Of a stretch of 64,000 nt of DNA, positions 31,288-35,266 are shown one piece after another. The notes below the pieces were generated by a model. The model saw nothing but the letters and a program-made list of their open reading frames with translations. It had not been told where the DNA came from and did not search any database. Made by a program: the position numbers and the translations under genes. The number at the start of each line of letters is the position of its first letter. Positions within the stretch are counted from its first letter, which is position 1. Origin of the DNA: Rhodospirillaceae bacterium SYSU D60007 (lineage in GTDB: Bacteria; Pseudomonadota; Alphaproteobacteria; Reyranellales; Reyranellaceae); contig QOCQ01000010.1 of assembly GCA_003574685.1 (NCBI GenBank), positions 62,001-126,000 of the forward strand. The letters run 5' to 3'.

Positions 31288-31396
31288 CGGGAACGCGGCA
31301 AGAGACCCGCGCTCTCAGGGGTTTTTGGCGGGCCGCGGCATGGCGGAGCCGTCCACGCCGGTCTATATATTGGTGGTGGAGGTCGGCTGCGGCGTC

Positions 31397-33562
31397 ATGA
31401 TCCGGCAGTTCGAGCTGGTTGAACGCGTCAAGTCCTACGATCCCAATGCGGACGAGGACCTGCTGAACCGCGCCTACGTCTATGGTCTGCGCAAGCACGG
31501 CGCCCAGACGCGCGCTTCCGGCGATCCCTATTTTTCCCATCCCGTTCAGGTCGCCGGCCTGCTCGCTGACATGCGGCTGGATTCGGCGTCGATCGTCACC
31601 GGCCTGCTGCACGATACGGTCGAGGACACCGACGCGACCCTCGAGGAGATCGAGCGGCTGTTCGGCCCGCAGATCGCCAAGCTGGTGGACGGCGTCACCA
31701 AGCTGTCGCGCCTGCAGTTGCAGTCGGACGACACCAAGCATGCGGAGAATTTCCGCAAACTGGTGGTGGCGATGTCGGACGACATCCGTGTGCTGCTGGT
31801 GAAGCTCGCCGACCGGCTGCACAACATGCAGACGCTGCACTTCATCAAGGATGCCGACAAGCGCCGCCGAATCGCCCGCGAGACGATGGACATCTATGCG
31901 CCGCTGGCCTCGCGTATCGGCATGGAGCACGTCAAGGAGCAACTCGAGGACATGGCCTTCGCGGAGCTCAATCCCGAGGGCCGCCAGTCGGTGGTCAACC
32001 GCCTGCAGTTCCTGCGCGAGCACGGCCGCACGCTGGTACCCGATATCTGCGGGGAGCTGCGTGCCGTCCTGCACGAGGCCGGCATCGAGGCCGAGGTCAC
32101 GGGCCGCGAAAAGACGCCATATTCGATCTGGCGCAAGATGCGCACCAAGAACGTGTCCTTCGAGCAGCTCTCGGACATCATGGCCTTCCGTGTCGTGGTG
32201 GACAGTGTGCAAAGCTGCTACGCCGCGCTGGGTGCGCTGCACGGCCGCTATCGCACCGTGCCCAACCGGTTCAAGGACTACATTTCGGTTCCCAAACCGA
32301 ACGGCTACAGCTCGCTGCACAGCGGCCTGCACGGGCCGCACGGCAATCGCATCGAGGTGCAGATCCGCACCCGCGAGATGCACGACATTGCCGAGCATGG
32401 GGCAGCGGCGCACTGGGCTTACAAGGAAGGCGCGGCGGCGACCGAGGGCCGGCAGTATCGCTGGCTGCGCGATCTGCTCGATATCCTGGACAAGGCGTCC
32501 GGCCCGGAGGAATTCCTCGAGCACACCAAGCTCGAGATGTTCCAGGACCAGGTGTTCTGCTTCACGCCGAGGGGCGACCTGCACACCCTGCCGCGCGGCG
32601 CCACGCCGGTCGACTTCGCCTACGCCGTCCACAGCCAGGTCGGCGACACCTGCGTGGGCGCCAAGGTCAACGGCCGGATGGTGCCGCTGCGCACGCCACT
32701 GCAGAACGGCGACCAGGTCGAGATCGTCACCTCAAGGGCGCAGACGCCCTCGCCGACCTGGGAGCGCTTCGTCGTCACCGGCAAGGCCAAGGCCGCCATC
32801 CGCCGCTATGTGCGGATGAAGCAGCGCGAGCAGTATCTCAGCCTGGGCAAGTCGCTGCTGCACAAGGCGTTCAGCGAGGCCGGCGAGGCGATGACCGAAA
32901 AAGGCCTGCACGATGTATTGGCCAATTTCAAGCAGCAGTCGATCGACGATCTTTATGCAGCGGTCGGGGCCGCGCTGGTGTCGGCCCGCGACGTGGTGCA
33001 TGCGGTCTATCCCGGCCTGAAGACCCGCTCCAAGGGCGGCGCCGACGTGGTGCCGATCGCGCGTGCCCGTGCCCGGCTGCGCGAAGGTGGAGAAGCGGCG
33101 CCCGACGATCCCTCGATCGCGGTTCGCGGGCTGATCCCGGGCATGGCCGTCCACTTCGCGCGCTGCTGCCATCCGCTGCCCGGAGACCGTATCGTCGGCA
33201 TCATCACCACCGGCAAGGGTGTCACCATCCACACCATCGACTGCGAGACGCTGGAGAGCTTTGCGCATCAGCCCGAGCGCTGGATCGACGTGGGCTGGCA
33301 GGGCGGGGCGGACAGCGGCAACAAGTATGTCGGGCGCCTGCGGGTCACGGTGGAGAACCGCACCGGTACCCTGTCCAGCCTGTCGACGGTGATCGCCCGC
33401 AACGAGGGCAACATCATCAATCTGAAGATCACCAACCGCTCCTCGGACTTTTTTGACATGCTGCTCGACATCGAGGTGTCCGACGCCCGTCACCTCGCCG
33501 ACATTACAGCCGCCCTGCGCGCCACCCCCGCCATCAACGCTGTGGAACGGGCGCGCGCCTAG
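31397..33562 (+). CDS. rsh: Bifunctional (p)ppGpp synthetase/hydrolase
   Basis: Stringent response enzyme making and degrading (p)ppGpp. In the 721-residue form: HD hydrolase domain (residues ~20-170, with YFSHPVQVAG and the catalytic HDTVED at 72-77), synthetase domain (RFKDYISVPKPNGYSSLHSG), TGS domain (VFCFTPRGDLHTLPRGATPVDFAYAVH) and C-terminal ACT domain (VTVENRTGTLSSLSTVIARNEGNI). The intact HD motif indicates hydrolysis as well as synthesis. The start ATG 31397 (MIRQFELVERVKSY) matches the usual alphaproteobacterial Rsh N-terminus; an upstream in-frame ATG at 31340 lies across a possible -10 region and is less likely. Downstream lies the decamer array. Confidence 0.95.
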   Translation: MIRQFELVERVKSYDPNADEDLLNRAYVYGLRKHGAQTRASGDPYFSHPVQVAGLLADMRLDSASIVTGLLHDTVEDTDATLEEIERLFGPQIAKLVDGVTKLSRLQLQSDDTKHAENFRKLVVAMSDDIRVLLVKLADRLHNMQTLHFIKDADKRRRIARETMDIYAPLASRIGMEHVKEQLEDMAFAELNPEGRQSVVNRLQFLREHGRTLVPDICGELRAVLHEAGIEAEVTGREKTPYSIWRKMRTKNVSFEQLSDIMAFRVVVDSVQSCYAALGALHGRYRTVPNRFKDYISVPKPNGYSSLHSGLHGPHGNRIEVQIRTREMHDIAEHGAAAHWAYKEGAAATEGRQYRWLRDLLDILDKASGPEEFLEHTKLEMFQDQVFCFTPRGDLHTLPRGATPVDFAYAVHSQVGDTCVGAKVNGRMVPLRTPLQNGDQVEIVTSRAQTPSPTWERFVVTGKAKAAIRRYVRMKQREQYLSLGKSLLHKAFSEAGEAMTEKGLHDVLANFKQQSIDDLYAAVGAALVSARDVVHAVYPGLKTRSKGGADVVPIARARARLREGGEAAPDDPSIAVRGLIPGMAVHFARCCHPLPGDRIVGIITTGKGVTIHTIDCETLESFAHQPERWIDVGWQGGADSGNKYVGRLRVTVENRTGTLSSLSTVIARNEGNIINLKITNRSSDFFDMLLDIEVSDARHLADITAALRATPAINAVERARA

Positions 33563-33644
33563 ATCTGCCTTGATTTTTTCATAAGAAAATGAGATACGTC
33601 AATTGCATCAGGCGCACGCGATAGGTGCGTGTGATGCGATCTGG

Positions 33645-33657
33645 ATCTGTCTCAAAT
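33645..33657 (+). repeat. 13-bp direct repeat, left copy
   Basis: ATCTGTCTCAAAT occurs here and again at 34027-34039, where it forms the last array unit and includes the hisZ stop codon. The two copies bracket 369 bp containing the decamer array. Confidence 0.7.
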
Positions 33658-33810
33658 CATCTCCAACCGGGCACCTGCGTCTCCCGGCGAGGAGGGGTAT
33701 TCGCCTGTCCCGACCGCAGCCCCATGGCGCGAACCTGCGCCATATGCGGACGCCCTGCCTGCCGGGGCAGGCCAGCGGACTTTCGGGCGGGTTCTATGCA
33801 CCCGTCTGTA

Positions 33811-34038
33811 CCTGTCTCCGGCTGTCCACGACTGTCCCAACTTGTCTCCATCTGTCTCCGCCCGTCCAGTCTGTCCACGGTTGTCTCAACCTGTCTCCGG
33901 CTGTCCATGACTGTCCCAACCTGTCTCCATCTGTCTCCACCTGTCCAGGCTGTCCATGACTGTCCCAACCTGTCTCCATCTGTCTCCACCTGTCCAGGCT
34001 GTCCACGGCTGTCTCAACCTGTCTCCATCTGTCTCAAA
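33811..34038 (+). repeat. Helically phased CTGTCY decamer array between rsh and hisZ
   Basis: About 23 consecutive units, nearly all 10 bp and a few 9 or 11 bp, each built on (C/T)TGTC(C/T). A 49-bp block of five units is repeated side by side (33911-33959 and 33960-34008), differing only in the last three bases. On the rsh sense strand it is C-rich and G-poor: in 33901-33960 I count 24 C and 10 G. It fills most of the 471-bp gap between the converging rsh and hisZ stops. The 10-bp period does not preserve reading frame, so coding is unlikely. Nothing else is visible in the gap apart from a weak AT-rich hairpin after rsh. Confidence 0.9.
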
Positions 34039-35266
34039 TGGCGGTGGGCTTGCCATCAACCAGGGTGTGGGTGCAGCCAAGGCGGCGGGCTTCGGTGGCG
34101 GGCTCTGCCCCGGCATCAAGGCCACGCACGGTGAGAAAGCCCTGTGCCTGCCAGCCGGCCAGCGCATTCCAGGGCGTGCCGGGCGGCACATAGAGGCGCT
34201 GGCCGGGAAGCTGGATGCGGGCGGCCCCCGATACGGTGTCCATGTAGAGCGTGAAGCCGGTCGCCGGCACGGTGCGGCCTCTGCCGGCATCGGCCGGGCC
34301 CGTCTCCGATGCGATCGGCACGACGGATAGATCGGCCGCAGCCTCGTCCTCCGGATAGCCGGCACGGTAACGGCCGCCGCGGCCCAGCTCGCCGCGCGTA
34401 TCGAGCGCGTAGAAAGTGAAGCTGACGCCCGTCTGGTATTCCAGCCCGCGATACTCCACCGGATCAATCGTCAGCCGCAAATCGGGTGCCGCCGTTCGGA
34501 CCAGCAACATCACCGCTTCCAGGCGGTCGGCTTCGGCGCGCGCATCCTCTGGCAAGTCCAGCGCCTGCAGGGCGGTGAGACCCGGCTCGGCTGGCCCGAC
34601 GGTGCGCAGCAGGCCCACGAACAGGTCTGCCGACGCACTGGCAGCACCGAGCGAACGACGCACGGCATCCTCATCCTTGCGCTCCAGCGCCCGGCGCAGG
34701 CGCGCGACCGTGACGGCCGGCAGGGCGAGGCTCCGGCACACCGCGGTGACCAGGGTGGGCAGGTTCAGGTCGACGGAGAGATTGGCGACCCCCACCGCAC
34801 GCAGGGCCTCGACGGCGAGAAGGATCGTCTCGGCATCGGCATCGGCCGAGTCTGGTCCGATCAGCTCGGCGCCAGCCTGGGCGAATTGCCGCTCCGGCCG
34901 CAACTGCGAGCCGCGCACCCGGATCACGTTGCCGGCGTAGCTCAGCCGCAGGGGCCGCGGCGCGTCCCGCAGCCGCGTGACCGCGATCCGGGCGATCTGC
35001 ACCGTCATGTCGGGACGCACGCCCATCATGCGCTGGGACACCGGGTCCATCAGCCGGAAGGTATCCTTGGCCAGCGCCGCGCCCGGCCCGCCCAGCAGCG
35101 ACTCCTCGAACTCGACCAGCGGCGGCTTGACCCGCTGGTAGCCGTGCGCGGCCAGGCGGCCCATCACGCGCTCCATCGCGTGCGCCTCCAGCGCTGCTTC
35201 CGGTGGCAGCATGTCGCTGAGGCCTGCGGGCAGCAGGCCGCGATGGGGTGTGTCATTGGCGCTCAC
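34034..35266 (-). CDS. hisZ: ATP phosphoribosyltransferase regulatory subunit
   Basis: HisS-like protein without aminoacylation activity that pairs with short-form HisG in the first step of histidine synthesis. The 410-residue protein has class II synthetase-like motif 1/2 regions: GLLPAGLSDMLPPEAALEAHAM, KDTFRLMDPVSQRMMGVRPDMTVQIARIAVTR and the later GGRYRAGY-type glycine-rich motif GRGGRYRAGYPEDEAA. GTG start at 35266 has AGGAGG 6 bp upstream. It is divergent from purA, a common neighbour in alphaproteobacteria. Its TGA stop sits inside the last unit of the decamer array. Confidence 0.92.
   Translation of the reverse strand: MSANDTPHRGLLPAGLSDMLPPEAALEAHAMERVMGRLAAHGYQRVKPPLVEFEESLLGGPGAALAKDTFRLMDPVSQRMMGVRPDMTVQIARIAVTRLRDAPRPLRLSYAGNVIRVRGSQLRPERQFAQAGAELIGPDSADADAETILLAVEALRAVGVANLSVDLNLPTLVTAVCRSLALPAVTVARLRRALERKDEDAVRRSLGAASASADLFVGLLRTVGPAEPGLTALQALDLPEDARAEADRLEAVMLLVRTAAPDLRLTIDPVEYRGLEYQTGVSFTFYALDTRGELGRGGRYRAGYPEDEAAADLSVVPIASETGPADAGRGRTVPATGFTLYMDTVSGAARIQLPGQRLYVPPGTPWNALAGWQAQGFLTVRGLDAGAEPATEARRLGCTHTLVDGKPTAI

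Follow-up and report, generated by a model that had tools for sequence, protein, structure and literature searches.

A decamer array between two converging genes

Several unrelated bacteria carry intergenic arrays of short repeats, and it is on this ground that the family described here falls. The question is raised by a tandem array of decamers in Rhodospirillaceae bacterium SYSU D60007, located in a 64,000-nucleotide stretch of contig QOCQ01000010.1 that was analyzed as a whole and is referred to below as the window: what is this array, how did it come to lie between two genes, and does it act on them? Examination of the window shows 22 TGTC[CT] boxes on the plus strand at 33813..34035, and the C-rich strand is the sense strand of the gene rsh. 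Elsewhere in the window there are at most six TGTCY per 226-bp stretch, and the maximum in 30 first-order Markov simulations was five per 226 bp, which places the array far above chance and bears out its existence as described in an earlier note made from the sequence alone. The "about 23 units" given there is a fair count, as degenerate CGTCY units can be seen by eye near 33802 and 33862 in addition to the 22 boxes, and a recount of the bases in 33901-33960 gave the identical 24 C and 10 G. The flanking genes do converge, as had been stated. The RelA/SpoT family gene rsh (31340..33562, plus strand; TIGR00691, E 1.1e-210, over the cut-off) reads into the C-rich strand, and hisZ, for the ATP phosphoribosyltransferase regulatory subunit (34034..35266, minus strand; TIGR00443, E 1.6e-66, which is below that model's curated cut-off), converges on the array from the other side. 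The hisZ stop codon, TGA, is the TCA of the last array unit, TGTCTCA (34034..34036, minus strand).

Box starts run from 33813 to 34030 with gaps of 10 bp, save for one of 19 bp and two of 9 bp, giving a mean spacing of 9.86 bp. TRF reports the 10-bp period and, at a higher order, periods of 49 bp (94% match) and 79 bp (88% match), the 49-bp repeat occupying 33882..34035 on the plus strand in 3.1 copies. The degenerate 5' end of the array (33788..33812, plus strand) consists of GTTCTAT followed by CCGTCTGTAC, and was judged by eye to be similar to the (CG)TTCTAYC with which solitary copies of the repeat begin elsewhere in the genome. A possible decayed solitary module, ATCTGTCTCAAATCATCTCC, again found by eye, lies between rsh and the array at 33645..33664 on the plus strand. 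When both strands are considered, the plus strand of the array is the C-richest and G-poorest 100-nt stretch in the window (C/G 2.62).

A dispersed polar repeat in the source genome

The earlier note had suggested a search of the genome for further arrays of the same decamer, and had counted a lack of similar arrays at other gene ends among the results that would refute its reading. Such arrays exist: the genome to which the window belongs (G000; 5.34 Mb in 58 contigs) has three-unit arrays on many of its contigs, and the search revealed a dispersed family. Reading the G000 loci (L-numbers below are locus labels) identified a common start, CTAYCTGTCTC, in the arrays and in solitary copies too. 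Solitary modules (CTAYCTGTCTCNNNNTGTCTC) coexist with arrays of mostly 8- to 10-bp units, and the basic module is approximately 20-30 bp long, reading (CGTT)CTAYCTGTCTC-N4-TGTCTC(A/C), in which the two TGTCTC boxes are spaced by 10 bp. At L216, L220, L217 and L215 there are variant clusters that repeat the TGTCTC pair approximately every 27 or 39 bp. The module pattern CTAYCTGTCYCNNNNTGTCYC occurs in G000 at 39 exact places and at 126 with no more than one mismatch, some of the latter being internal array units, and the reversed control pattern gave 0. A sequence-only model, R1, built from 53 copies, gave 166 matches in G000 at E<=1, from a search in which 150 of 706 candidates were scored. 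The rsh/hisZ array is one member of this dispersed polar repeat family, for which no description was found in the open-licence PMC literature.

Among the genomes searched, the repeat forms a family in G000 alone. The strict three-unit pattern was found in 0 of 74 other genomes of the taxonomic family, 50 of which have a completeness of 90% or more and a contamination of 5% or less. Across 385 genomes of the class, the R1 model, applied at E<=0.001 with stricter filters, matched G000 and gave one marginal match, in G253 (E 6.5e-4). Within the genus, with one mismatch allowed, the module pattern occurs once in G001 and once in G002, and is absent from G003. A wide bacterial survey of genome contigs with a loose, degenerate five-unit pattern yielded 113 stretches among the matches listed, most of which look like CTGTC pentamers or other simple repeats. 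Five of these 113 (L047, L057, L076, L091 and L103) fit the module pattern, since it is included in any pure CTGTCTCTAY array; therefore, the pattern alone is no proof of common descent. The perfect CTGTCTCTAY decamer arrays at L057, L091 and L103 all lie in one Saprospiraceae bin, and these, along with those at L047 and L076, are possibly private decamer families of a similar sort. The module pattern also matches eight IMG/VR stretches, a number that a rough estimate puts at about chance level for that collection, and a phage origin was rejected on these matches.

How the copies are placed was determined in 52 G000 loci, taken because they matched and not as a random genome sample, with gene edges from a home-made ORF caller (NCBIfam hits were obtained for 10 of 10 genes tested, 4 of them over the curated cut-off). 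These loci hold 48 clusters, 45 of which lie outside called genes, indicating that the family is mostly non-coding; three are within called genes (L183, L184 and L186), 17 are without one flanking gene, and 28 are usable. In 26 of the 28 usable intergenic clusters, the 3' edge of the TGTC strand is closer to an ORF than the 5' edge is (p 3e-6), the exceptions being L023 and L178, and the median distance to the ORF is 31.5 bp from the 3' edge versus 231.5 bp from the 5' edge. This polarity is independent of ORF direction, with 16 stops and 12 starts located at the 3' edge. Neighboring genes are convergent at 11 clusters, tandem at 15 and divergent at two, compared with 26, 106 and 49, respectively, of the 181 regions of 100 bp or longer that separate genes in these loci, a background that includes the element-bearing regions, so that the convergent and divergent comparisons are not independent.

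As at hisZ, a TGA stop is exactly the TCA of the last TGTCTCA at L012, L015, L024, L176 and L180, the last two being solitary modules. This TGTC|TCA register is found for 6 of 21 opposing neighbors, for which the assumed chance level of 1/60 per site is arbitrary and serves as a rough guide. By reading, the stop is the TCA of the penultimate unit at L009 and L027, and adjoins a unit at L014. The C-terminal end of HisZ is at the corresponding residue in G003 (stop TGA) and G001 (stop TAG), both of which are without the array. Likewise, G001 (TGA), G002 (TAG) and G007 (TGA) have copies of the gamma-glutamyltransferase-like gene at L180 with the same final residues and position of the stop, and the module is absent from these copies; hits to this gene in G003 and G009 are on the other strand and were left out of the stop comparison. 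Given that both stop positions are kept without the repeat, the element at these two loci sits on a pre-existing stop and has not truncated the gene.

In the relatives, the rsh/hisZ junction holds other sequences: an inverted repeat in G001, and an extra gene plus an inverted repeat in G003. The inverted repeats differ between the two related genomes (L196:3890-4040 and L195:4110-4260), and therefore this convergent junction turns over repeats fast. A hairpin, GTCTCCCCGC...GCGGGGAGACAG, with a GAGACAGA-like end, is located in G001 right after the stop of the gamma-glutamyltransferase-like gene (L241, first 60 bases), and may be related to the module as its sister or its ancestor. A dyad at L180:5035-5060, ACCTTCCC...GGGAAGGT, which we take to resemble a CueR site, precedes a copper-ATPase-like gene and is kept in G001.

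One insertion-sequence end is present in 10 copies in G000, each no more than about 420 bp from a contig end; seven of the 10 lie within approximately 110 bp of a repeat pair, one lies at 482 bp, and two are without any nearby. A second type of end lies beside clusters six times, a count that is biased by the choice of loci for their clusters. Insertion-sequence ends abut repeat clusters at L017, L018, L019, L026, L027, L182, L192 and other contig ends, and many G000 contigs break at such sites, a pattern that would fit arrays at which insertions are either favored or safely tolerated.

Origin of the arrays and a possible role for Rho

The dominant units are private to each array, with 11 copies of CTGTCTCAAC at L014, 10 of CTGTCTCCAT at L017 and seven of CTGTCTCCGC at L013. 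Judging from this unit make-up and from the 49-bp duplications at rsh/hisZ, the arrays probably expanded in place. The explanation that we favor, with a probability of roughly 70%, takes the array to be one copy, expanded locally, of a polar REP/STRR-like repeat that is dispersed between genes, spread by insertion and grew by slippage. The two boxes of the module form a direct repeat, from which replication slippage or unequal exchange would build decamer arrays in place, and since these boxes lie 10 bp apart in the solitary module, slippage would give a 10-bp period without selection for helical pitch. Copies would spread through a putative insertion process that is directional relative to gene edges, and would persist at gene ends owing to the little harm done there. 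Whatever effect there may be on the transcripts of rsh and hisZ, for instance termination of rsh read-through by Rho, would be secondary. Points against this explanation are the lack of a conserved palindrome, the two loci that break polarity (L023 and L178), and the three clusters inside called genes. With solitary modules, grown arrays and shared stops in one genome, and repeat-free junctions in its relatives, the order "insert, then expand" is directly testable.

Private unit mixes are also what would be seen if these were unrelated simple-sequence arrays, each arising independently by slippage with no dispersed element involved. Arrays of CTGTC pentamers and decamers are found in many bacteria, and the five survey loci carry the module pattern simply through their CTGTCTCTAY unit. 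Nevertheless, independent slippage is very improbable as an account of G000, where the CTAY tag recurs at the 39 exact places with differing spacer bases and none in the control, is present in solitary two-box modules as well, and is accompanied by a polarity to ORF edges and a stop register that slippage would not lead one to expect. We give even less credence to a helically phased binding site for a TGTC-contacting protein, for example a PhoB-type response regulator, in favor of which are the near-10-bp direct repeats and the resemblance of CTGTC to the start of a PHO-box half site. The earlier note had every TGTC facing the same side of the helix, however at 10.5 bp per turn the mean spacing of 9.86 bp causes the boxes to drift around it (resultant 0.17 of 1), and helical phasing is thereby ruled out. 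In addition, CTGTCAT, from the PHO-box consensus, is absent from the window array, convergent regions are favored and divergent ones avoided, and a scan of ten neighboring genes gave no common theme.

Other candidates were also rejected. A G3 quadruplex motif is found in 0 of 17 arrays, and a weak G2 motif in 13 of the 17. There is no sign of conserved RNA structure, with 0 predicted pairs in 53 modules, and Rfam gave one sub-threshold miRNA match (E 0.85). By reading, the 8- to 10-bp units are without the unique spacers of a CRISPR.

The earlier note further proposed that the array could be an expanded rut site terminating rsh transcription before hisZ. RhoTermPredict models rut sites as having more C than G and regularly spaced Cs over 78 nt (PMC6407284), and our scoring is our own version of its first step. 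The composition agrees with the proposal: the best 78-nt stretch of the window array has a C/G of 3.4 with C spacing as in that first step, and C/G is at least 2 in 15 of 17 arrays compared with 19 of 340 stop-downstream control regions without elements. As RNA, the TGTC strand shows no more folding than shuffled sequences do (z +1.42) and is predicted to be unstructured, and the hisZ-sense strand exceeds its shuffles in folding (z -2.46). G000 has a Rho gene, and no intrinsic-terminator-like site was found in 33500-34200. What counts against the proposal is the family to which the array belongs, which is polar and the solitary modules of which, at 20-30 bp, fall short of the 70-80 nt of a rut.

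More broadly, the arrays could be functional rut sites, selected for insulation, that, as their C-rich strand mostly points into the nearby ORF, would load Rho on RNA entering a gene from outside, whether this is read-through from rsh at hisZ, antisense transcripts at the other stop edges, or read-through at start edges. Such selection may account for the polarity and for the enrichment in convergent regions, and is compatible with the expanded-repeat explanation. In support, 21 of 28 clusters have their 5'-side gene reading into the C-rich strand (p 0.001 against an expected 0.436), although this is mostly because of convergent enrichment and divergent depletion, and the tandem clusters divide into 10 with a sense and five with an antisense C-rich strand (p 0.30). 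Moreover, the short solitary modules are placed in the same manner as the arrays, there is no gene reading in from the 5' side in 7 of 28 clusters, 12 of 28 precede a start, a position at which a rut could end transcription of the gene itself, and the arrays at L014 and L017 fail the C-spacing rule. Given these points, we regard selected rut sites as unlikely, and Rho action, in the form of putative termination or insulation at gene edges, as a possible consequence and not the cause of the repeat family. Somewhat more doubtful again is the full scenario in which a species-specific micro-repeat was planted at gene edges in a single fixed orientation and the arrays that grew from it by slippage have become Rho-loading insulators. 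In that scenario, with the C-rich strand pointing into the ORF, RNA invading the gene from either end would be terminated, and the length of an array would be a rapidly evolving control on antisense and read-through transcription. Should the rut reading be correct, the arrays would represent a natural length series of Rho sites.

Comparison with known repeat systems

Like the rut sites modeled by RhoTermPredict (PMC6407284), the arrays present, downstream of a gene, an unstructured strand that is rich in C, poor in G and regular in its Cs, but they differ in being a repeated, sequence-specific family with short solitary members, for which Rho action is putative. The TAACTGA direct repeats of marine Beggiatoaceae, located just upstream of start codons (MacGregor 2015, PMC4679880), are similar in forming many intergenic sets of a short direct repeat that are sporadic among species; the unit is different, and in G000 stop edges are at least as common as starts (16 stops, 12 starts, n=28). 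Elements of the REP GTAG and CGTC super-families are 20-40 bp, dispersed and extragenic (Di Nocera et al. 2013, PMC3733652), lie mainly in unidirectional and convergent regions near 3' ends, and have GTAG termini that often give the flanking ORF its stop. The family in G000 shares the extragenic, 3'-biased placement and may supply the stop codon (6 of 21 opposing neighbors). In contrast to REPs, it has no conserved palindromic stem (0 predicted pairs in 53 modules), direct boxes replace the hairpin, and it expands into decamer arrays. Mobilization by a RAYT transposase is a trait of REPs of the GTAG type.

Among the kinds described, the closest are the heptamers GGGNATC and GGGGA(C/T)T, G-rich repeats of Xanthomonas and Nostoc that are arranged in short intergenic tandem arrays throughout the genome (Rehm et al. 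2015, PMC4692102). As reported by Rehm et al., their G-rich strand starts nearer its 5' ORF whichever way that ORF reads, they lie near stop codons on the coding strand, with stop overlaps included, are under-represented between divergent ORFs, and are generally not beside insertion sequences. Both systems consist of dispersed intergenic tandem units with a polarity to ORF edges (26 of 28 here), overlap stops, and avoid divergent regions. They differ in that the unit here is 8-10 bp and not 7, the 17 arrays contain no G3 quadruplex motif, there is a CTAY-tagged solitary module, several copies lie beside insertion sequences, and the family is found in one genome. The recurrence of the ORF-edge rule here without the G3 quadruplex motif suggests that the rule does not come from quadruplexes.
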